Source: Candidatus Abyssobacteria bacterium SURF_5
GTDB lineage: Bacteria > Abyssobacteria > SURF-5
NCBI GenBank assembly: GCA_003598085.1
Contig: QZKU01000088.1
Location: 1-28,749, forward strand
DNA length: 28,749 bases
Direction of reading: 5' to 3'
Below are positions 14,109 through 28,591 of this stretch, one piece after another. The notes under the pieces are model-generated. The model was given only the letters and a program-made list of their open reading frames with translations, made no database searches and had not been told where the DNA came from. Numbering within the stretch: the first letter of the stretch is position 1; each line of letters opens with the position of its first letter. The position numbers were made by a program, and so were the translations under genes.

Positions 14109-15239
14109 TCATGCGTCAGATTTTTCGGGCGTGAACAGAGCGGCAAATTCGCCGTAGCCCTCCTTTTCAAGGTCCTCCTCGGGGATGAAACGAAGGGCGG
14201 CGGAGTTGAGGCAATAACGCAGGCCGGTGGGCGGCGGACCATCGGTGAAAACGTGGCCAAGATGCGAATCACCGTGTTTGCTTCGGACCTCCGTCCGTTT
14301 GATAAAGAAGAGCTTGTTGTCTTCCCTCTCGACGATGTTTTCCGGAACGAGAGGTTTGGTGAAGCTTGGCCAACCGGTGTCTGAGTCGAACTTATCGAGC
14401 GAGCTGAACAAAGGTTCGCCTGAGACGATATCAACGTAGATGCCGTCGCGCTTATTGTCCCAGTACTCGTTCTTGTACGCCGGTTCGGTCCCTTCATTTT
14501 GTGTGACTTCGTACTGGAGCGGTGTCAACCTCTTGCGCAGGGTCGCGTCATCAGGCTTGGTGTATTTCTGCTCCTTTGTCAAGGCAACCTTCTCCGGCTC
14601 TTTTCCCCAGATTTTCTCGATGAACTGGTCCCGTCCTGAGCGCCAGCGGTAGTACGTATACTTCAGTTTACTGGTGTCGTAGTAGTCTTGATGATAATCT
14701 TCCGCCTTGTAGAAGTTGGTAAACGGGACGATCTCGGTGACAATGGGTTTTTCAAACCTGCCGGAGGCATCGAGCGCGTTCTTTGATTCTTCGGCCTGCC
14801 GCTTCTGCTCCTCATTTTCATAAAAGATCACACTGCGATATTGCTCGCCCCGGTCGACAAACTGCCCTCCCGGGTCGGTCGGATCGATATGTTTCCAGAA
14901 GACCTCGAGGAGTTGACTATAGTCCGTCTTCGAGGGGTCATAATAAACCCGCACGGTCTCCACATGTCCCGTTGTGCCCGAAGATACTTCTTCGTAGGAA
15001 GGATTTTCCTTATGACCGCCTGCGAACCCCGAGATGGCTTCGACCACTCCGGGCGCCTTCTCAAAATCTGCTTCAACGCACCAGAAGCAGCCTCCCGCAA
15101 ATGTGGCCGTTTGCAGATTGTCCTGGTTGATCCCCTCGTCGCCTTCAACCTGCCGATTAAAAATGCCGAATAGATCCAAGGCAACCGCTCCTGCTATGAG
15201 TACCATAACGATTAGGAGAATCTTGGTCTTCATTCTCAT
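14109..15239 (-). CDS. msrAB: Bifunctional peptide-methionine sulfoxide reductase MsrA-MsrB, membrane-anchored
   Basis: A 376-residue fusion that repairs both S- and R-methionine sulfoxide in oxidised proteins. An N-terminal hydrophobic segment (residues 5-25) is a signal anchor or signal peptide, so the enzyme should work in the periplasm. MsrA spans about 44-200 with catalytic C51 in GGCFWC. MsrB spans about 229-357 with [17 protein letters not shown] and catalytic C343 in [11 protein letters not shown]. The CxxC zinc pairs found in many MsrB proteins are missing, which is a common variant. GGGAGGGG lies nine bases upstream of the first ATG (15239); a second ATG at 15233 is possible. Its electron donor (a CcdA/thioredoxin-like system) is not in the window. 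Confidence 0.94.
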
Positions 15240-15305: not shown

Positions 15306-15330
15306 CATCTTCAGCCATTTTGTGAAGATG
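15306..15330 (-). terminator. Probable terminator of the ArsS operon
   Basis: On the minus strand, CATCTTCA pairs with TGAAGATG around a nine-base loop just after the glycosyltransferase stop. A run of five T (15300-15296) follows a few bases on. The stem is short and AT-rich, so efficiency is doubtful. Confidence 0.5.
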
Positions 15331-15336
15331 GACACG

Positions 15337-16692
15337 TTATCTGAGGGGCGAGCGGGCGGCTCTGTACCACCGTGCAACGGTGTCGAGGGGGGCGCCAATA
15401 TAGTAAGCCAATATCACCGCCTGATTAATTATCGTTGTTCGCCATACCCCCAAAGCGAGCCAGCGCCTGGCAGAGGTGGTAATTGGAACAGGAGCAATCA
15501 CAACGGCGCCACGTTTTCGAAGGCGCCGAACGAAAACGAAATCCTCCATGATCGGCATATCAGGGAACCCGCCCATTGCGCGGAAAAGACTTGTTCTCAT
15601 GAATAGCGCCTGATCCCCATATGGCATCTGGAGCAGCTTCGAACGCAAATTGGCCGCGCGCTCAATGACGCGAAGGCTGAGGTTTGTGGCGTCTATGGAA
15701 AGTAGAAATGCTCCGCCCGCAGTCCGGGGCTCCGCCAGCACTCGGCGGATATGACCGTCAAAACCGTTCGGCAGATGCGTGTCGGCGTGCAGAAACAGGA
15801 GAATCTCACCCATCGCGGCGGCAGCTGCGGCATTCTCTTGTTTTGCTCGTCCCCCGGGAGCAACGACAACTTTGACGCCTCGCGATTCAGCTATACCGAG
15901 GGTGTTGTCGCTGCTGCCTCCATCGGCGACAATTATCTCTATATTGCGGCCTTTTTTAGCTCTATCGATGGCAGCCGCCAGAGTCGATGCTTCATTGAGC
16001 GTAGGGATGACGATTGTAATCCGCTCCGCCTCCAGTTCTTGCCGAGCCCGGCGCTCCTCGGTTTCCCAAACAACGAGGTCCTCCGGATTGTCCACGTCAT
16101 CCAGTGTGTTTACGAAGCTGATGGAGCATCCGAGCTCCCTTGCGACGTCGAGGGTCTTCCCGATCACTTCGCCTGTTCCCCACGGCAAGCCGGCGAACAG
16201 AGCCTTGATCGGGGAGCGTAGCCCAATAAGATAATAGCCGCCGTCGGTCGCCGGCCCAAGAACGACGTCTGTTCCGTCAAGCGCGTCGAAAGCTTCGAAC
16301 AAGATTTCAGGCGTGATGCCGGGGCAATCAGTGCCAATTAGGACGGCTTGTTCTGCTCCGGCTGCGAACGCTTCCTGAAACGCATTGGCCATCCGCTGCC
16401 CGATATCACCTACGTCCTGTCGGCTATAGGAGAAATCACGGCCGAGCCACCGCCTCATGCGGCGCCTGCCGCCGCCATCGTACTGGACCTCTACCAAAAT
16501 CTGTCGCTCCCGTGCGAATCTTCGCGCGCGTCCAACGACGTGCTCTGTCATTCGGCGCTGCAGTTCCGCGGCGCCCTCAGAACCCAGCGCAGGGGTCAGG
16601 CGCGTCTTGGTTTTGCCCGGTTCGGGATAGCGGGTGAAGATAATCAGTCGTTGGCGATAGCCGGCGCCTTTCAACCTGTAAACAACCTCCAT
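15337..16692 (-). CDS. Fused double glycosyltransferase (TIGR04282 + TIGR04283 types)
   Basis: A 451-residue protein joining two GT-A nucleotide-diphospho-sugar transferase domains that are usually separate genes. Domain 1 (about 15-215) is the DUF2064 / 'rSAM/selenodomain-associated transferase 1' type, with FTRYPEPGKTKTRL, the metal-site IGTDCPG and DGGYYLIGL. Domain 2 (about 222-452) is the family-2 'transferase 2' type, with ITIVIPTLNEAS, VADGGSSDNT, FLHADTHLP, YGDQALFMR and PIMEDFVFVRRL. Both families are known as companions of radical SAM/Cys-rich (ArsS-type) proteins, which is also the case here. ATG 16692 overlaps the previous stop; an in-frame GTG lies directly before it at 16695. 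The likely role is sugar transfer in an arsenosugar or related small-molecule pathway; substrates are unknown. Confidence 0.88.
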   Translation of the reverse strand: MEVVYRLKGAGYRQRLIIFTRYPEPGKTKTRLTPALGSEGAAELQRRMTEHVVGRARRFARERQILVEVQYDGGGRRRMRRWLGRDFSYSRQDVGDIGQRMANAFQEAFAAGAEQAVLIGTDCPGITPEILFEAFDALDGTDVVLGPATDGGYYLIGLRSPIKALFAGLPWGTGEVIGKTLDVARELGCSISFVNTLDDVDNPEDLVVWETEERRARQELEAERITIVIPTLNEASTLAAAIDRAKKGRNIEIIVADGGSSDNTLGIAESRGVKVVVAPGGRAKQENAAAAAAMGEILLFLHADTHLPNGFDGHIRRVLAEPRTAGGAFLLSIDATNLSLRVIERAANLRSKLLQMPYGDQALFMRTSLFRAMGGFPDMPIMEDFVFVRRLRKRGAVVIAPVPITTSARRWLALGVWRTTIINQAVILAYYIGAPLDTVARWYRAARSPLR

Positions 16693-18215
16693 CACAGCCG
16701 TCTAAACGCAAGCAGCAAGGTGAACATTTTCTTGACGAACGGCGTCAGCCGGGTCCGGTTATACGCATCGGCAATGTGTTTGAACGACTCAGCCTGAGTC
16801 GGATACGGGTGAATCACGTTTGCAACAGCCTTCAGCCCCAAATTATTGACCATCGCGAGCGTGATCTCGCTGATCATTTCGCCCGCATGCCGCGCAACCA
16901 CCGTCGCGCCAAGAATTGTGTCGGTCCCTTTCTGCACATGAATTTTTGCAAGCCCCTCTTCTTCGCCGTCTGCGATTGCGCGATCGACTTCGCTGAACTG
17001 TCGCACAAACGTCTCCACTGGAATATTGCGTTCCTTCGCTTCCTTTTCGTACAGCCCGACATGCGCGATCTCCGGATCTGTGTAAGTGCACCAGGGAACA
17101 GTCAGGGCGCTTAAACGCTTGCGGCCCCAGAACAAGGCATTTTGGATCACGATTCTTGCCGTTGCATCGGCCATATGAGTGAATTTATGCGCAAGACACA
17201 CATCGCCCGCGGCATAGATATTCGCATTGGTTGTTCTCAATCTATCATCCACAACGACTCCGCTCCTGGCGTCGTATCTGACACCGGCTGCCTCGAGATT
17301 CAAGTCCTCGACGTTTGGCGCACGACCCGCCCCAATAAGGATTTCATCGACCGCGATGGTCTCCGATCTGCCTTCGGTCTCGAGATGCAGTAGTTTCTCT
17401 TCTCCCGAGACCGAAACCCGCTTGATCGTCGTCTTCAACCGGATATCGATCCCCTCTCGCCGGAACGTTTCGGCAATGATATCGGCCGCATCGCGATCTT
17501 CTCTTATCAGGATTTGTGGCGCTATTTCAAGCAATGTCACTGAACAGCCGAGCCGGTGAAAGGCCTGCGCAAGCTCGCATCCGAGCGGGCCGGCGCCCAA
17601 AACCGCCAACCGCGCCGGCCGCTCGTTCAGCGAAAAAACGGTTTCATTCGTAAGGAATCCAGCTTCGGCCAATCCCTCGACAGGCGGTTGAGTCGCTCTT
17701 GCCCCCGTAGCGATGACCGCTTTCTTGAACCGAAGTGTTTTTCCGTCGACCTCGATCGCGTTGGGGCCGGTGAATCTCCCTTGCCCCAGGAAAACGTCCA
17801 CCCCCAACTTTCGGAACCGCTCCGCGGAGTCGTGCCGGCTGATCCGCGCTCGAATTCGCCGCATTCGCTCCATGACGGCCGGAAAATCAGCCTCTGTTGC
17901 GCCTTTAAGACGGATGCCGAACGAAGATGCGCCGCATATATCGGCCACGATCCGGGAAGAACGGATCACGCATTTGGAAGGGACACAGCCGACATTCAGG
18001 CAATCGCCGCCCATGAGATGTCTCTCCACCAGCGCGACTTTCGCGCCGAGACCCGCCGCTCCGGCGGCCGCCACCAGGCCGGCGGTTCCGGCGCCGATCA
18101 CTACGAGGTTGTAGCGGCGGGCAGGCTCAGGATTCTTCCAATCAGGCGGATGAACATTGCGTACCAGGGCGGCATTATGCTCGTCTGCGGGGAGAACCTC
18201 AATTTTTCTGTCCAT
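16692..18215 (-). CDS. FAD-dependent pyridine nucleotide-disulfide oxidoreductase, MerA-like
   Basis: A 507-residue class I flavin disulfide reductase. The FAD-binding Rossmann motif VVIGAGTAG is at about 38-46, the redox-active cysteines are C72 and C77 in GGDCLNVGCVPSK, the NAD(P) motif AVLGAGPLG is near 210, and a second FAD motif NIYAAGDV is near 335. A C-terminal dimerisation domain carries HPYPTQAE in place of the usual HPHPT..E. It lacks the N-terminal HMA domain and the C-terminal Cys pair of true mercuric reductase, so automatic 'MerA' naming would be misleading. It sits between a TVP38-like membrane protein and the fused glycosyltransferase and overlaps the latter. AAGAGG precedes ATG 18215. 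Confidence 0.88.
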   Translation of the reverse strand: MDRKIEVLPADEHNAALVRNVHPPDWKNPEPARRYNLVVIGAGTAGLVAAAGAAGLGAKVALVERHLMGGDCLNVGCVPSKCVIRSSRIVADICGASSFGIRLKGATEADFPAVMERMRRIRARISRHDSAERFRKLGVDVFLGQGRFTGPNAIEVDGKTLRFKKAVIATGARATQPPVEGLAEAGFLTNETVFSLNERPARLAVLGAGPLGCELAQAFHRLGCSVTLLEIAPQILIREDRDAADIIAETFRREGIDIRLKTTIKRVSVSGEEKLLHLETEGRSETIAVDEILIGAGRAPNVEDLNLEAAGVRYDARSGVVVDDRLRTTNANIYAAGDVCLAHKFTHMADATARIVIQNALFWGRKRLSALTVPWCTYTDPEIAHVGLYEKEAKERNIPVETFVRQFSEVDRAIADGEEEGLAKIHVQKGTDTILGATVVARHAGEMISEITLAMVNNLGLKAVANVIHPYPTQAESFKHIADAYNRTRLTPFVKKMFTLLLAFRRL

Positions 18216-18235
18216 AAGCGGCCTCTTGTAACCGA

Positions 18236-18943
18236 TTATTCCTGATTACCTGTGTTCGCCTCTTTTTCCCGGAGCTTTCGGCGCGCTGCCCGAACCAGGA
18301 ACACGATGCCGATGGCTGCCGCCGCAAGTATGGCGACTAAAATCCACGGCACCCGTCCCTGAGAGACTGCCCGAGCGAAAACATCCGCTCCCACCACATA
18401 GAGCACTGTTCCGGGCAGCATGCACAGAAACGACCAAAACACGTACGTCCGGAATCGGACACGCGTAAGCCCAAAGCCGTAGTTGAGGAGATTGAACGGA
18501 AAGATCGGCGCCAGCCGCGTCAGCGCCACGATGATGGCGCCGTGCCTTTCAGTGAGCTGATCGATCCGCCGGAATTTCTCCTTCGTCGACAACCACCGGG
18601 CAACGGCATCCCGCGCAAAATAACGCGAAATGAGAAATGCGAGGCTCGCTCCAATGGTGGCGCCAAAGATGACTACGACGACGCCGACTACCGATCCAAA
18701 TAGTGCGCCCGCGGTAACCGTAAGGGCCGACCCGGGAACAGCCGCTACAACTGCAGCAACATAGATAAGAACAAAAGCGGCCGGGCCCCATGCTCCTAAA
18801 GAACGAATCCATTCCCGCAGGAGAGCCAGCTTCTCACCGAGTCCGAAGACCCTGGCGAGCGCCAGCATCATCAGGATGAGAACAAGCAGGAAAATCGGCT
18901 TCCATAAATCCTTCTTTGGCTTTGGTTTATCTATTTCATTCAT
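18236..18943 (-). CDS. TVP38/TMEM64 (DedA-like) family membrane protein
   Basis: A 235-residue inner-membrane protein. A short charged N-terminus precedes about six hydrophobic segments. The family core is visible: VPGSALTVTAGALFGSVVG, IGASLAFLISRYF, then RLAPIFPFNLLNYGFGLTRVRF and LPGTVLYVVGAD. Family members are linked to lipid scrambling or small-molecule transport, and they often neighbour the MerA-like oxidoreductase seen next. ATG 18943 is chosen because it opens the typical short N-terminus; the frame stays open upstream into arsS, but extension would add an unlikely polar leader. The Shine-Dalgarno is weak. It lies 52 bases after arsS and 20 before the oxidoreductase, in one operon. 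Confidence 0.85.
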   Translation of the reverse strand: MNEIDKPKPKKDLWKPIFLLVLILMMLALARVFGLGEKLALLREWIRSLGAWGPAAFVLIYVAAVVAAVPGSALTVTAGALFGSVVGVVVVIFGATIGASLAFLISRYFARDAVARWLSTKEKFRRIDQLTERHGAIIVALTRLAPIFPFNLLNYGFGLTRVRFRTYVFWSFLCMLPGTVLYVVGADVFARAVSQGRVPWILVAILAAAAIGIVFLVRAARRKLREKEANTGNQE

Positions 18944-18995
18944 GATAGAGTACGCTTTTTTAATTTCTGAGGGTGCAACAACTGCATGGAAGTCA

Positions 18996-19949
18996 TTAGA
19001 GCAATGCTCCTCCACATGACGAACCGGCCCCGGCCGTACAGCCAAAGCAATGGTCTCCGGTAACGATGCGGCGGGTTTTCAAGAGCTCCGGCTCAAACGA
19101 GCGGATATGATTCGGAGCGCCGTGGTTGACGGCGCACCCGAGGGCCAGGTTGAAATCGCAATCGTACAGGCTGCCGTCCCAGCCGACGCTGATCTGGCGC
19201 CGGCACATCAAACTGTCGAGCGTTGCAGGATTAAAAGAATCTTTCAGCAGCTCCAGGTATTCTTGCTCCTGATTCTCGCGCCGCAGTATCCTCCGGAATC
19301 GCCCCAAAGGCATATTCGTTATCGTCAGAAGCCGATTGAACTCGAGTCCGAAGCGCGCGCGCAGCTCGCGCTTGTAGTCCGCTTCGAGCGAGGTCTGGCG
19401 CGGCGGCAGGAAGGCGCCGCCCGGATTGTACACCAGGTCGAGCGCCAGGCCCTCCTCGCGCCCGTAGCCGGCGGCGTTCAATCGCCTGACGGCCTCGATA
19501 CTGTTTTCGTAGATTCCTTTGCCTCGCTGCGCGCTTACGTTCTCCTCGAGGTAGCACGGCAGGGAACCCACAAGCTGGACCCTGTTGGCTCGAAAGAAGG
19601 CCGGCATATCGTCCATACCCGGTTCGAGGAGGACCGTCAGATTTGTTCGTACCTGCACTCGCAGACCGGCTTTGGAAAGCGCGTTGATAAAATCAACAAA
19701 ATAGTGATTGAGTTCAGGGGCGCCGCCTGTCAGATCAACAAGCTTGCAGCTAATTTTCCCAACCGCCGCCAGAATCGATTCCATGATCGGCCAATCCATT
19801 GTTTCGGCCCGATCCGGCGAGGCCATGAGGTGACAGTGCCTGCACTGTTGATTGCACCGCAGCCCCAGGTTCGCTTGTAAAATATCGATTCCCCGGCAGT
19901 ACAGCCCCTGCCCAAGGAACCTCTCGATCCTTCTTTCAAAATCGTTCAT
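18996..19949 (-). CDS. arsS: Radical SAM/Cys-rich protein, arsenosugar biosynthesis ArsS type
   Basis: A 317-residue radical SAM enzyme. The 4Fe-4S/SAM cysteines are C32, C36 and C39 in LRCNQQCRHCH, and DLTGGAPELN follows as the SAM-contact segment. The C-terminal Cys-rich domain contains LMCRRQISVGWDGSLYDCDFN and ends in HCFGCTAGAGSSCGGALL (C301, C304, C312). This is the TIGR04167 type. Characterised ArsS adds a 5'-deoxyadenosyl group to dimethylarsenic on the way to arsenosugars. Many relatives carry selenocysteine in the C-terminal region; here all positions are Cys codons and the gene ends in TAA. It heads a four-gene minus-strand operon with the TVP38-like protein, the oxidoreductase and the fused glycosyltransferase. 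ATG 19949 is preceded by GGAG about nine bases upstream. No arsM or ars resistance gene is seen nearby. Confidence 0.88.
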   Translation of the reverse strand: MNDFERRIERFLGQGLYCRGIDILQANLGLRCNQQCRHCHLMASPDRAETMDWPIMESILAAVGKISCKLVDLTGGAPELNHYFVDFINALSKAGLRVQVRTNLTVLLEPGMDDMPAFFRANRVQLVGSLPCYLEENVSAQRGKGIYENSIEAVRRLNAAGYGREEGLALDLVYNPGGAFLPPRQTSLEADYKRELRARFGLEFNRLLTITNMPLGRFRRILRRENQEQEYLELLKDSFNPATLDSLMCRRQISVGWDGSLYDCDFNLALGCAVNHGAPNHIRSFEPELLKTRRIVTGDHCFGCTAGAGSSCGGALL

Positions 19950-20112: not shown

Positions 20113-20180
20113 GTAGGGCCGAATTCATTCGGCCTCCTTTGACACAAGCCGAAGATCCGTGCGAATAAATTCGCACCTAC
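20113..20180 (+). repeat. Composite GTAGG repeat, two palindromic units, arms facing outwards
   Basis: The first unit (20113-20134) opens with GTAGGG and contains GGCCGAATTCATTCGGCC. The second unit (20159-20180) is GTGCGAATAAATTCGCAC followed by CTAC. Both units recur exactly as reverse complements at 28511-28532 and 28570-28591. It lies in the 481-base intergenic region 19950-20430, which otherwise holds the terminator and methyltransferase promoter below and no visible gene. Confidence 0.85.
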
Positions 20181-20430: not shown

Positions 20431-21120
20431 ATGAGTCTGCGCTCGAAAATAATAAAGACCGGCTGGGACCATTATGCCCGGTGGTACGACAGGGTACAGC
20501 CGAAAGCGATCGAGCTACTGCATTTTTTCGGAGATTTTTCCTTCGGCGAATTCCAGGAGCGGCTTGTCGAACTGGCGAATCTGCGACCTGGCGACAAGGT
20601 GCTCGACGTCGCGTGCGGGACGGGAGCCGCACATCCCGCCATCGCACGCGCTATCGGGCCGCGGGGCGAATTGATCGGTGTTGATCTTTCGAGCCGAATG
20701 CTCGAGCAGGCGAAGGCCAAAGCTCGCCGATTGAAGACCTCGGTCGAATATCTCGAGGCGGACGCGGAGGAACTCTCTTCCGTCTTTGAAAAGGAAAGCT
20801 TTGACGCTGTCATCAGCATCAACGGCCTCCCGCAATTCCCTCACCCCGAAAAGGCCCTCCACGAAATGATGCTGGTTCTGCGGCCGGGCGGCCGATTTGC
20901 AGTATCAACGATAAGCCGCGAGCGGTGCGAGCGGAAAATTTTCTTGTGGCCGCTGATGAAACTGGCGCCGCGCTTGTGGAGCAGCGAGAGATTTCGACGG
21001 CGCGTGAAAGAATTGGGGCTGGTGCATGTGAAAATTATCGAAGAAGGGATCATGCTGATTATAACCGGCGATAAGAGTGCACATCCTCCGCGCGCCGGTC
21101 GCCCCAAAGGCAGATTTTAA
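20431..21120 (+). CDS. Class I SAM-dependent methyltransferase (UbiE-like)
   Basis: A 229-residue Rossmann-fold methyltransferase. The SAM-binding motif I is VLDVACGTG (residues 57-65). An acidic strand end, IGVDLSSRML, follows, and then EADAEELSSVFEKESFDAVISINGLPQFPHPEKALHEMMLVLRPGGRF, split here by its FDAVI core, matches the methyltransferase-11 pattern of UbiE-type enzymes. The substrate is unknown. It has only isolated cysteines and no ArsM-like Cys set, so despite lying divergent to arsS it is not a recognisable arsenite methyltransferase. ATG 20431 has only a weak GAAGAAAAG upstream. A hairpin follows the gene at 21151-21169. Confidence 0.82.
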   Translation: MSLRSKIIKTGWDHYARWYDRVQPKAIELLHFFGDFSFGEFQERLVELANLRPGDKVLDVACGTGAAHPAIARAIGPRGELIGVDLSSRMLEQAKAKARRLKTSVEYLEADAEELSSVFEKESFDAVISINGLPQFPHPEKALHEMMLVLRPGGRFAVSTISRERCERKIFLWPLMKLAPRLWSSERFRRRVKELGLVHVKIIEEGIMLIITGDKSAHPPRAGRPKGRF

Positions 21121-23227: not shown

Positions 23228-24145
23228 ATGGTTCGTGGACTACGAAGTTCTCCTGCGGGCTCTCTCTTGCTCCTCGTCCTGGCCTTGACACTGATCTTGT
23301 CTCTCACGAGTTCAGCCTACGCGAAAGACCCTCAGCTCATTCCGCGCCGGCTCAGCTCAGTGGGTGACAGCATCAGCGCAGGCATCGACGTGGATTATTA
23401 CGGACAAAACGCCAACGCGAGCTGGGTCAACGGCTACTACGGCTTCTGGGAATGGCTCTTCGGATATACCAACGTAAAGAGCCACAACCAGAGAATCACG
23501 GCTAACTGGGGCAGCAGCGGCCGCGCGAACTACATGGATGCCGTTAGCGGCGCCGACAGCTTTGATATACCGCTCCAGACTTCGCAGGCTGTCAGCCAGA
23601 GCGCCTACTACGTGACCGTTTTCATGGGCCACAACGACGTTTGCCAGAACACTTTTGCGGAGATACCGTCTGATGCGGTGTTCGAGGCGAATTTCCGCCA
23701 GGGAATGAATAACCTGAAGAACGGGCTGCCAAACGGCGCAACCGTTTACGTTCTCGCAATTGTGGATATCCGGCGCCTGTATGACGTTGGACAGGACATG
23801 TACGCGCTCGGAATCGTCGACTGCGAAGTGCTCTGGGCGACGACGCTGCTCGGCTGGTTCCCTTGCGGAACGATGCTCAGCCCGCTCAACAGCGAGGCCG
23901 ATCGGCAGTACACCCGCAGCCGCAACATCGCTTTCAACAACATTCTCCAGAATGTGACGGCGGAATTCAACGCAAACGATCCGCATCACTACTACTATTT
24001 TACGAACATGCCGTTCATATATCCCTATACGTCCGGTGATGTATCCACCCTGGATTGCTTCCATCCGTCCGGACAGGGACAGAAGACGCTTTCGCGCGAA
24101 TCCTGGAACGTCGGTCCATTCGCCGCCTATCAGAGAGGAAGCTGA
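23228..24145 (+). CDS. Secreted SGNH/GDSL-family hydrolase, copy 1
   Basis: A 305-residue exported protein with a signal peptide (1 to about 32, ending AYA). SGNH signatures are S48 in the block I motif SVGDSISAG, N136 in MGHND (block III) and the D276/H279 pair in LDCFHPSG (block V). Such enzymes are esterases or lipases acting on ester bonds in lipids, acylated sugars or cell-wall polymers; the substrate is unknown. Cysteines C139, C199, C213 and C277 are all kept in the neighbouring paralogue, suggesting disulfides. AAAGGAGA lies eight bases before ATG 23228. The block II glycine is not clearly assignable. Confidence 0.83.
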   Translation: MVRGLRSSPAGSLLLLVLALTLILSLTSSAYAKDPQLIPRRLSSVGDSISAGIDVDYYGQNANASWVNGYYGFWEWLFGYTNVKSHNQRITANWGSSGRANYMDAVSGADSFDIPLQTSQAVSQSAYYVTVFMGHNDVCQNTFAEIPSDAVFEANFRQGMNNLKNGLPNGATVYVLAIVDIRRLYDVGQDMYALGIVDCEVLWATTLLGWFPCGTMLSPLNSEADRQYTRSRNIAFNNILQNVTAEFNANDPHHYYYFTNMPFIYPYTSGDVSTLDCFHPSGQGQKTLSRESWNVGPFAAYQRGS

Positions 24146-24187: not shown

Positions 24188-24270
24188 CTTCTCCCTATGG
24201 CGCCAATTACAGTTAATCCGGCAGCTTGTTGCACCCCATGAAGCCGCGGCTGTGGAAAGGAAACCCGGCA

Positions 24271-25176
24271 ATGCAGTCCTTCCTTCGCTCTCGAATTCCC
24301 GTTTTTTTGCTTTCGATCGCGATGCTCTGCTTCTTCACGGCAAGGGCATTTGCCAAGGACCCGCAGCTTGTCCCCCGGCGCCTCAGTTCGACCGGCGACA
24401 GTATCAGCGCGGGCATCGATGTGGAGTATTATGGCCAGAATTCAAATGCCAGTTGGGTCAACGGCTATTATGGTTTCTGGCAATGGTTACTCGGGTTGAC
24501 CGACGTGCGGAGCCACAACCAGAGGATCACTGCGCAATGGGGAAGCGGCGGGCGCACAAACTACATGGATGCAGTCAGCGGCGCCGACATATTCGATCTC
24601 CCGCTCCAGACGTCTCAGGCGGTCAGCCAGAGCGCTTACTATGTCACCATCTTCATGGGCCACAACGACGTCTGCCAGGACCATTTCGAGGATATCCCGT
24701 CTGACGCAGTTTTTGAAGCTAATTTCCGGCAGGGCATGGAGAATCTCAAGAACGGCCTCCCTAACGGCGCGACTGTCTACGTTCTTGCGATAGTTGATAT
24801 CTACCGGCTTTACGTGGTGGGCCAGGACAAAAAGGCTCTCGGCATCGTCGACTGCGAATTGCTGTGGGCGACGACGCTGCTCAACTGGTTTCCGTGCGGG
24901 ACGATGCTCAACCCGCTCATAAGCGAGGCCGACCGCCAATTCACGCGCAGCCGCAACATCGCGTTCAACAAAATCCTCGAACGCGTGACGGCGGAATATA
25001 ACGCCGCCGATCCTCATCACTATTACTATTGGACGAAACTGCCGTTTGTGTTCCCGTTCAACGAAAGCCATGTCTCTAACCTCGACTGTTTCCACCCTTC
25101 CGCCAAAGGGCAGAAAACCTTATCGGCAGTGGCATGGTATGTCGGACCGTTCAGAACTTTCGGGGAGGGGGATTAA
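24271..25176 (+). CDS. Secreted SGNH/GDSL-family hydrolase, copy 2
   Basis: A 301-residue tandem paralogue of the gene at 23228, matching it along the whole length and, by eye, at about three quarters of residues. It keeps the signal peptide (ending AFA), STGDSISAG, MGHND, LDCFHPS and all four cysteines. Differences cluster near the C-terminus and in residues following the GDS and HND blocks, which could shift substrate preference. ATG 24271 is chosen because AAAGGAAA (24256-24263) precedes it and it opens the signal peptide; upstream in-frame TTG and ATG codons lack a ribosome site. The gene may be read through from copy 1 past the hairpin at 24163 or use its own promoter, which I could not identify. 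Confidence 0.83.
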   Translation: MQSFLRSRIPVFLLSIAMLCFFTARAFAKDPQLVPRRLSSTGDSISAGIDVEYYGQNSNASWVNGYYGFWQWLLGLTDVRSHNQRITAQWGSGGRTNYMDAVSGADIFDLPLQTSQAVSQSAYYVTIFMGHNDVCQDHFEDIPSDAVFEANFRQGMENLKNGLPNGATVYVLAIVDIYRLYVVGQDKKALGIVDCELLWATTLLNWFPCGTMLNPLISEADRQFTRSRNIAFNKILERVTAEYNAADPHHYYYWTKLPFVFPFNESHVSNLDCFHPSAKGQKTLSAVAWYVGPFRTFGEGD

Positions 25177-26120: not shown

Positions 26121-27920
26121 TTGGTAAGAAAGCAAATCGTCATTCTTCTATTCACAGTTCTGCAATTCGCTTTGCCCGCAAGACTGTGCGCTGCTGCGCA
26201 GGAGGGCCCCTTTGCCCTCATTTTCGTGATTGATGGAATCCCGAACGACTTGTTCATGCAAATGCTCGAGCAAGGCGAGCTTCCGAATTTTCGAACGCAC
26301 ATTTATGAAAGAGGAATACACTCGAAGCACCACGTAAGCGTGTTCCCCCCGCTCACCTTTCCTGCGATGGCAAGCATTTTCAGCGGGTATTATCCTTCCA
26401 GCCATAAAGTTCCAAACTTCTTCTGGGTCGATCGAGAGCAGGCCAGGTACAAGAGTTATCTGAGCGCACTGCTCCCGCAGTATCAAAGCGACCTCGAGGA
26501 AAACGTCCGCTTCCTTTTCGACTTTTTTCCGCGGCGGCGAACCCTATCATTCGGCCTGCCGCTCAATATCGGCGGCGATTACACCCGCCATCTCACCAGT
26601 TCGTTCATCGATATCTTTCGAGAATTCAGAGACCTCGATTATGTCGGAAAAACGGTCAAACAGGAGCACGCAATCGCGCCGGATATGCTCATTAAACCGC
26701 TCAAGACGCTGGCGCTCCTGAATCCCGCCAAGGAAACCAATGTTATCTCTCTCCTGAATCCCGCGAGCCCTTCCGGCATCCTGAGATACTCGCTGGCTTC
26801 CTTTTCCCCGACTACCCGGGCGCTGCGCCGGCAGATTCCGGCGGCGGTGCTTTATTACGAATGGGCTCCCGACCATTTCGGCCACGAGGACGGCCCCTGG
26901 AGCGACGACGTGCGTGATTCCCTCATCGAGGCCGATACCCAGTTCGGCCGCCTGGTGCGCGTGTACCAGCAGGCTGAAATCTATGACAGGACCTTCTTCT
27001 TTCTGCTCTCCGACCACGGCCAGATTCCTGTCGATCCAAAGTACGTCCGCATCGATCGCCTCTTTCAGAAGAAAGGCTTCAAGGCCCAATTCGTTTCCCA
27101 TGAATTAATAGCAAAATCAGGTCTCTCCGGACTGCTGAGAATCCGATCGGTCCTCATCGGCAGCGGCAGCATAAAAGGCTACAACTGCGCGCTCGGCACA
27201 GCGGGCGGCGGGTCGGTTGTTGCTTTTCTCTCAAAAAATGGGGGAACCAAGGCGGAGGACTGGCGCGAGCAGGTTTATTATGAAGACCTCCTGAGCTATC
27301 CTCTGGGCTCCAGCAGGCACGTTAACCTCATACAGTTCATCACCTCGATAGACGGAATGAATTTTTTTCTGGTTCGAGAGAATGAATTCGTTCCCGGCGA
27401 GCCGCATGAGACGCGGGTCGTAAGTCGTTCGGGCTCATCGCGCGTGAGGGCGAAGGTTCGGAATGGGAAGCCGGTCGAAATCGGGTACGAACTCATTGAA
27501 GGAAAAGACCCGCTGGAATACATGCAGAACCCTTCTCTGGCGGCATTTATCAGGGAGGGCCATCATGGTGATATGGAGTGGCTCGAAGCGACCGCTGAAA
27601 CCGCATATCCGGACGCGCCCGTCCAAATCGCGCAGATCATGGAAACGCCTCGCTCGGGATCGGTTATCATGGTTCCGGACGATTACCATTCATTCAATGC
27701 GCGCACGTGGTCGAAACATGGGGGATTGAGCGCCAGCGAAATGCTCACTACATTTGCTGTTGCCGGCCCGGGGATACGTCACGGTTCGATAGATCATTCG
27801 CGGGTGATCGATTTCGTGCCCACATTCCTGCACCTCATGGGAAGGAACGTGCCCACGGGATATTTCGACGGAATGGTTTTAGAAAATATTATCGCGGAAA
27901 CTGAGGCGGGGCCGCCATGA
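26121..27920 (+). CDS. Exported phosphodiesterase / alkaline-phosphatase-superfamily hydrolase (ENPP-like)
   Basis: A 599-residue protein with a signal peptide (1 to about 26, ending CAAAQ). The type I phosphodiesterase/nucleotide pyrophosphatase pattern is visible: metal ligand D38 in FVIDGIPND, Thr nucleophile T79 in FPPLTFPAMASIFSG, D251 and H255 in WAPDHFGHED, D298/H299 in LLSDHGQ, and a late H in WSKHGGLS. These are the ligands expected for a two-zinc hydrolase of phosphate mono- or diesters. The start is TTG 26121, supported by AAAGGA at 26106-26111 nine bases upstream and by direct entry into the signal peptide. The family covers nucleotide, lipid and phosphonate substrates, so the substrate is open. 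It appears monocistronic. Confidence 0.83.
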   Translation: MVRKQIVILLFTVLQFALPARLCAAAQEGPFALIFVIDGIPNDLFMQMLEQGELPNFRTHIYERGIHSKHHVSVFPPLTFPAMASIFSGYYPSSHKVPNFFWVDREQARYKSYLSALLPQYQSDLEENVRFLFDFFPRRRTLSFGLPLNIGGDYTRHLTSSFIDIFREFRDLDYVGKTVKQEHAIAPDMLIKPLKTLALLNPAKETNVISLLNPASPSGILRYSLASFSPTTRALRRQIPAAVLYYEWAPDHFGHEDGPWSDDVRDSLIEADTQFGRLVRVYQQAEIYDRTFFFLLSDHGQIPVDPKYVRIDRLFQKKGFKAQFVSHELIAKSGLSGLLRIRSVLIGSGSIKGYNCALGTAGGGSVVAFLSKNGGTKAEDWREQVYYEDLLSYPLGSSRHVNLIQFITSIDGMNFFLVRENEFVPGEPHETRVVSRSGSSRVRAKVRNGKPVEIGYELIEGKDPLEYMQNPSLAAFIREGHHGDMEWLEATAETAYPDAPVQIAQIMETPRSGSVIMVPDDYHSFNARTWSKHGGLSASEMLTTFAVAGPGIRHGSIDHSRVIDFVPTFLHLMGRNVPTGYFDGMVLENIIAETEAGPP

Positions 27921-28510: not shown

Positions 28511-28591
28511 GGCCGAATGAATTCGGCCCTACCGGCATTGGGGTTCGCCCGCCAGGTGCGCTCCAACCGGTAGGTGCGAATTTATTCGCAC
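28511..28591 (+). repeat. Composite GTAGG repeat, two palindromic units, arms facing inwards
   Basis: 28511-28532 is the exact reverse complement of the unit at 20113-20134. 28570-28591 is the exact reverse complement of the unit at 20159-20180, and the flank TCTTCGGC is also shared. The two units keep their order but each is flipped, with a 37-base spacer instead of 24. Confidence 0.85.

Follow-up and report, generated by a model that had tools for sequence, protein, structure and literature searches.

Operon layout

The window analysed here is one whole contig (C88; 28,749 bases) of a 5.1 Mb genome in 145 contigs. Within 4.6 kb of it, four minus-strand genes encode an ArsS-type radical SAM protein, a VTT/TVP38 membrane protein, a MerA-like flavoenzyme and a protein in which the families TIGR04282 and TIGR04283 are fused (Table 1). 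All four frames are open, and along the operon the genes are spaced by gaps of 52 bp and 20 bp and finally by an overlap of 1-4 bases between flavoenzyme and fusion, so that the predicted arrangement of same-strand genes with short gaps or overlaps was borne out. For the membrane protein the first in-frame ATG (18943) was chosen as start; the listed TTG (19045) would overlap arsS. Families were assigned by comparing profile scores with the curated NCBIfam cut-offs, with Pfam used for domains, and the scores given below support the gene identities of the original prediction. The hairpin at which the operon had been said to end is present as a sequence (about 15330-15306), but as a terminator it is a weak candidate by its folding energy, its T run begins some bases beyond the stem, and it is absent from the list of a terminator scan of the window, which gave 10 sites compared with 8.8 expected by chance. 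A promoter-like site upstream of arsS was not detected in the scan of the arsS strand.

Table 1. Coordinates of the operon genes and the adjoining hairpin in the window
Feature	Position	Strand	Details
ArsS-type radical SAM protein	18996..19949	-	317 aa; TIGR04167, PF12345, PF04055
VTT/TVP38 (DedA-like) membrane protein	18236..18943	-	235 aa; PF09335; several hydrophobic segments
MerA-like pyridine-nucleotide-disulfide oxidoreductase	16692..18215	-	507 aa; NF004991
TIGR04282-TIGR04283 fusion	15337..16695	-	start GTG 16695 or ATG 16692
Hairpin 3' of the last gene, possible weak terminator	15306..15330 (about)	-	CATCTTCA/TGAAGATG; -9.7 kcal/mol, z -2.0

ArsS and ArsM

ArsS reached 415 bits against TIGR04167 (cut-off 300; positions 6-303 of 303). 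The radical SAM motif C-x3-C-x2-C (C32, C36, C39), DUF3641 and the C-terminal HCFGCTAGAGSSCGG motif are all present, and the three motif cysteines as well as C249, C264, C301, C304 and C312 are invariant across the eight ArsS proteins compared. A selenoprotein was ruled out, the protein being of the cysteine form with no in-frame TGA in its gene. Adenosylation of arsenic by ArsS has been reported (Cheng et al., 2021, as cited in PMC12159101).

Scores above the respective cut-offs, for ArsS and for each half of the fused protein, support the predicted link to arsenosugar synthesis, as NCBIfam itself labels TIGR04167, TIGR04282 and TIGR04283 as arsenosugar biosynthesis proteins. The genes stand together as they do in Acinetobacter, Burkholderia and Cupriavidus; the window differs from this set in the fusion of TIGR04282 with TIGR04283, in having arsM and an MTAP-type gene unlinked and in the lack of DUF547 at the locus.

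The absence of arsM noted in the original prediction holds for the window, but not for the genome. A profile search of the genome, as had been suggested, led to an ArsM of 276 aa on contig C38 with 358 bits on NF008823 (cut-off 263), and arsM was also found in both relatives from the phylum (3/3 genomes), so the argument that a missing arsM leaves the substrate open was not supported. The single TAA in the search match is the gene's own stop codon, and cysteines C66, C154 and C203 could be read from the sequence, in contexts that we take to be those of arsenic-binding cysteines. On the arsenosugar-specific ArsM model NF038099 the protein scored 98 bits, far under the cut-off of 400. Judged by these profiles it is of the general type and, because it falls so far below the specific cut-off, its evidence is limited to a predicted supply of methylated arsenic and does not extend to arsenosugar production. 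The divergent methyltransferase gene at 20431-21120 was rejected as arsM (73 bits against 263 on NF008823).

Conservation of the gene cluster

As a comparison within the phylum we used two other genomes, G001 and G002, both of which carry all four families within about 13 kb. The order in G002 is hydroxylase, ArsS, DUF547, VTT, flavoenzyme, an ORF with no family match and fusion, and in G001 hydroxylase, ArsS, an interval of ~4 kb, DUF547, VTT, flavoenzyme, a GT87-type protein and fusion. The window locus is a shortened form of this arrangement; the only DUF547 and hydroxylase genes of its genome lie ~11 kb apart on contig C127, away from the operon. All three related genomes have a single above-cut-off copy of ArsS, of TIGR04282 and of the NF004991 flavoenzyme, and in every case these copies share a contig and a neighbourhood. 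Because these genes are single-copy and nevertheless co-located in all three genomes, the clustering is not a matter of chance. The sole DUF547 domain of the window's genome belongs to a 914-aa ORF (L115 2249-4993, on C127), whereas the DUF547 proteins found at other ArsS loci are short, and a gene of the fatty-acid-hydroxylase/sterol-desaturase type adjoins ArsS in several bacteria (L019 11295-12206, L020 13465-14343, L026 6994-7899).

The wider survey covered the best 80 of at least 591 ArsS loci in GTDB genomes, picked by similarity, which makes its frequencies something other than a census. Counts refer to the 55 of these 80 loci with at least 4.5 kb of flank on either side and to 10 kb around ArsS, and were obtained with profiles made here from few seeds and with hand-set thresholds. 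TIGR04282- and/or TIGR04283-like genes were detected at 29 of the 55 loci (both at 22/55) and are concentrated within 2 kb of ArsS; ArsM-like genes followed with 12/55, MerA-like genes with 10/55 and VTT genes with 8/55, the pair of VTT plus MerA-like being found at 6/55. All four families occur together in the window, at L020, L022, L027, L061, L068, L074 and L090 and likewise in G001, and this co-location includes distant taxa (Acinetobacter and Cupriavidus plasmids, Oligoflexia, Deltaproteobacteria, Auribacterota, Isosphaeraceae). Neither ArsS nor the fusion had relatives among the viral contigs searched. The four-gene set sought around ArsS homologues was recovered in both relatives, so that the rare adjacency named as refuting the prediction did not arise within the family; beyond the family the set is a minority arrangement.

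Two plasmid loci illustrate its variation. That of Acinetobacter portensis (L027) comprises arsS, a bifunctional TVP38/FAD oxidoreductase, DUF547, TIGR04283, TIGR04282, a methyltransferase, a phosphate transporter, mtnP and a sterol desaturase; it shares the four families and the overall order with the window, but at L027 it is VTT and flavoenzyme that are joined in one protein while the transferases are two proteins, opposite to the window, and there are additional genes. In Pseudanabaena galeata (L024; order TVP38-mercuric reductase-arsM-TVP38-arsS) ArsS is likewise accompanied by a TVP38 protein and a mercuric-reductase-like flavoenzyme, whereas arsM lies within the locus and TIGR04282/TIGR04283 genes are absent within 8 kb.

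With VTT and MerA-like genes near ArsS at the 8 and 10 loci given above, these two might form a pair with a general role in stress or redox and lie beside an arsenosugar operon by coincidence. We regard such a loose neighbourhood as unlikely, as the arrangement recurs in distant bacteria, either with VTT and flavoenzyme fused (Acinetobacter, L068, L087) or with separate genes (L022), and as single-copy genes share one locus in the three related genomes. A recruitment of ArsS for a different chemistry on another substrate, e.g. selenium or a non-arsenic nucleoside, would fit with arsS being the only ars gene in the window and with the general type of the ArsM on C38, but is very improbable in view of the ArsS score with the family's invariant residues, the arsM genes of all three related genomes and the ArsM-like genes at 12 of the surveyed loci. 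With arsM on another contig and the four families clustered both in the relatives and in distant bacteria, the distinct pathway that the original prediction had allowed for is not supported; the operon belongs to an already named module, known from many bacteria and predicted to convert toxic arsenic into sugar-linked products, and is mostly ordinary save for the fused enzyme.

The fused TIGR04282-TIGR04283 protein

The two halves of the fusion scored 219 bits on TIGR04282 (residues 17-207; cut-off 134) and 245 bits on TIGR04283 (residues 226-444; cut-off 182). When a TIGR04282 profile of 30 domains was compared with the PDB, 3cgx, a putative nucleotide-diphospho-sugar transferase, came first, followed by guanylyltransferases of the CofC/FbiD type. 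The AlphaFold2 model of this half (pLDDT 95.2) matches the fold of 3cgx, 3-phosphoglycerate guanylyltransferase, KdsB, GlmU and IspD, and that of the TIGR04283 half (pLDDT 97.2) the fold of GT2 glycosyltransferases using UDP- or GDP-sugars. The TIGR04282 half resembles CofC/FbiD guanylyltransferases in fold and, distantly, in sequence (TM about 0.69-0.74 to 6bwg and 7p97), but stays under the CofC family cut-off (33 vs 105 bits). From these models it is predicted to have a nucleotidyltransferase fold and not a glycosyltransferase fold, a refinement that may be new; NCBIfam names the family a glycosyltransferase, and the nucleotidyltransferase-like fold leaves the reaction unsettled. The double glycosyltransferase originally proposed is better read, from both profile and fold, as a TIGR04282 domain of nucleotidyltransferase-like type joined to a GT2 glycosyltransferase.

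In the survey the order TIGR04282-TIGR04283 was observed in the window, L037 and L061 and the reversed order in L079 and L081, as expected for two enzymes of consecutive steps. Both relatives have a three-domain fusion (L020 4902-7076, L122 1354-3627), in which an N-terminal GT2-like domain precedes TIGR04282-TIGR04283; the extra domain of the G002 protein resembles polyprenyl-phosphate sugar synthases.

Four of the sampled loci have a gene of the methylthioadenosine phosphorylase (MTAP) type no more than 8 kb from ArsS (B. glumae, A. portensis, Cupriavidus and a Bdellovibrionaceae bin); at L079 it is the gene that separates ArsS from the fused transferases, and at L022 it comes immediately past the transferases. 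The MTAP-like gene of the window's genome is unlinked (contig C54) and scored 206 bits, under the cut-off of 274.85. MTAP acts on 5'-methylthioadenosine, of which the ArsS product is an arsenic analogue. From the nucleotidyltransferase fold of the TIGR04282 half and the MTAP-type genes near ArsS at four loci we infer, tentatively, that the fusion might be a bifunctional activate-and-transfer enzyme: once an MTAP-type enzyme has released the sugar 1-phosphate, the CofC-like half would convert it to NDP-(5-deoxy-5-dimethylarsinoyl-ribose), whose sugar the GT2 half would attach to glycerol or a lipid.

Flavoenzyme and VTT protein

The flavoenzyme scored 846 bits on NF004991 (cut-off 620) and contains a CLNVGC redox pair (CxxxxC) and the motif HPYPTQAE, in agreement with the thiol-redox type that had been predicted. 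It has the fold and the redox pair in common with MerA, but on the MerA model TIGR02053 it remains under the cut-off (405 vs 454 bits), the C-terminal Cys pair is absent, and it keeps a His-Glu motif also present in most homologues. We take this motif to be that of disulfide reductases and the C-terminal cysteine pair to be a trait of mercuric reductases. Mercury reduction was rejected from the MerA score and the missing C-terminal cysteines. A role as a thiol-disulfide or arsenical reductase is plausible from the sequence.

The VTT protein matched PF09335 with 107 bits and the model of the undecaprenyl-phosphate transporter UptA, NF052604, with 26.5 bits against a cut-off of 250. Its substrate could be a lipid carrier or a lipid product, although the low UptA score is at most a hint of this. 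The product of the ArsS-type pathway might also be an arsenosugar or glycolipid linked to a polyprenyl or lipid group, VTT then moving or recycling the lipid carrier. This would suit the hydroxylase-type gene, DUF547 and the large ORF preceding the fusion (GT87-type in G001, with no family match in G002) at the loci of the relatives, the extra N-terminal GT2 domain of their fusions with its synthase-like copy in G002, and the weak UptA matches of the VTT proteins. The window locus, however, has no extra GT2, GT87-like protein, hydroxylase or DUF547, the latter two residing on C127, and the UptA scores are far under the cut-off; we regard this reading as unlikely.

Proposed pathway

Gene identities, linkage, the presence of arsM and the fold classes are observed, and with the conditional steps after ArsS and the two accessory roles added to them, the operon is probably an arsenosugar-biosynthesis module (a probability of roughly two in three for the reading including its proposed steps). 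ArsM, whose gene is on contig C38, would convert arsenite to dimethylated arsenic, to which ArsS would add the 5'-deoxyadenosyl group of SAM in the reaction known for its family, giving dimethylarsinoyl-deoxyadenosine. A methylthioadenosine-type phosphorylase may then exchange adenine for phosphate on the arsenical nucleoside. The resulting ribose 1-phosphate, still carrying the arsenic, may next be activated with a nucleotide by the TIGR04282 half, after which the TIGR04283 half may pass the sugar to an acceptor, for instance glycerol or a lipid. Holding a thiol or the arsenical in the reduced state would fall to the flavoenzyme, and membrane handling of a lipid or product to the VTT protein.

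Among the organic arsenic compounds of algae and seafood, arsenosugars are abundant. In the literature accessible to search we found no description of the enzymes acting after ArsS, and a fused protein of two predicted activities adjoining ArsS offers a compact in vitro test of these steps. The specialist interest of the locus lies in the specific and testable role proposed for this protein. In addition, arsenosugar-type gene sets are extended to groundwater bacteria, the nearest named relative being labelled Candidatus Poribacteria.

Flanking sequence

The operon is followed after 97 bp, on its own strand, by the gene for an MsrA-MsrB fusion (14109-15239, minus strand) with a hydrophobic leader at its N-terminus; genes of the Msr type were found within 10 kb of ArsS at 3/55 well-flanked loci. 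The palindrome GTGCGAATNNATTCGCAC occurs in the window at 20159-20176 and 28574-28591, with 33 copies in the genome and 0 in a backwards control, and looks like a dispersed family of short palindromic repeats. Its first copy in the window lies inside a 96-base stretch upstream of arsS with a strong stem-loop (z -3.0). A pair of GDSL-lipase/acylhydrolase genes (23228-24145 and 24226-25176) is followed by a type I phosphodiesterase-like gene (26121-27920).
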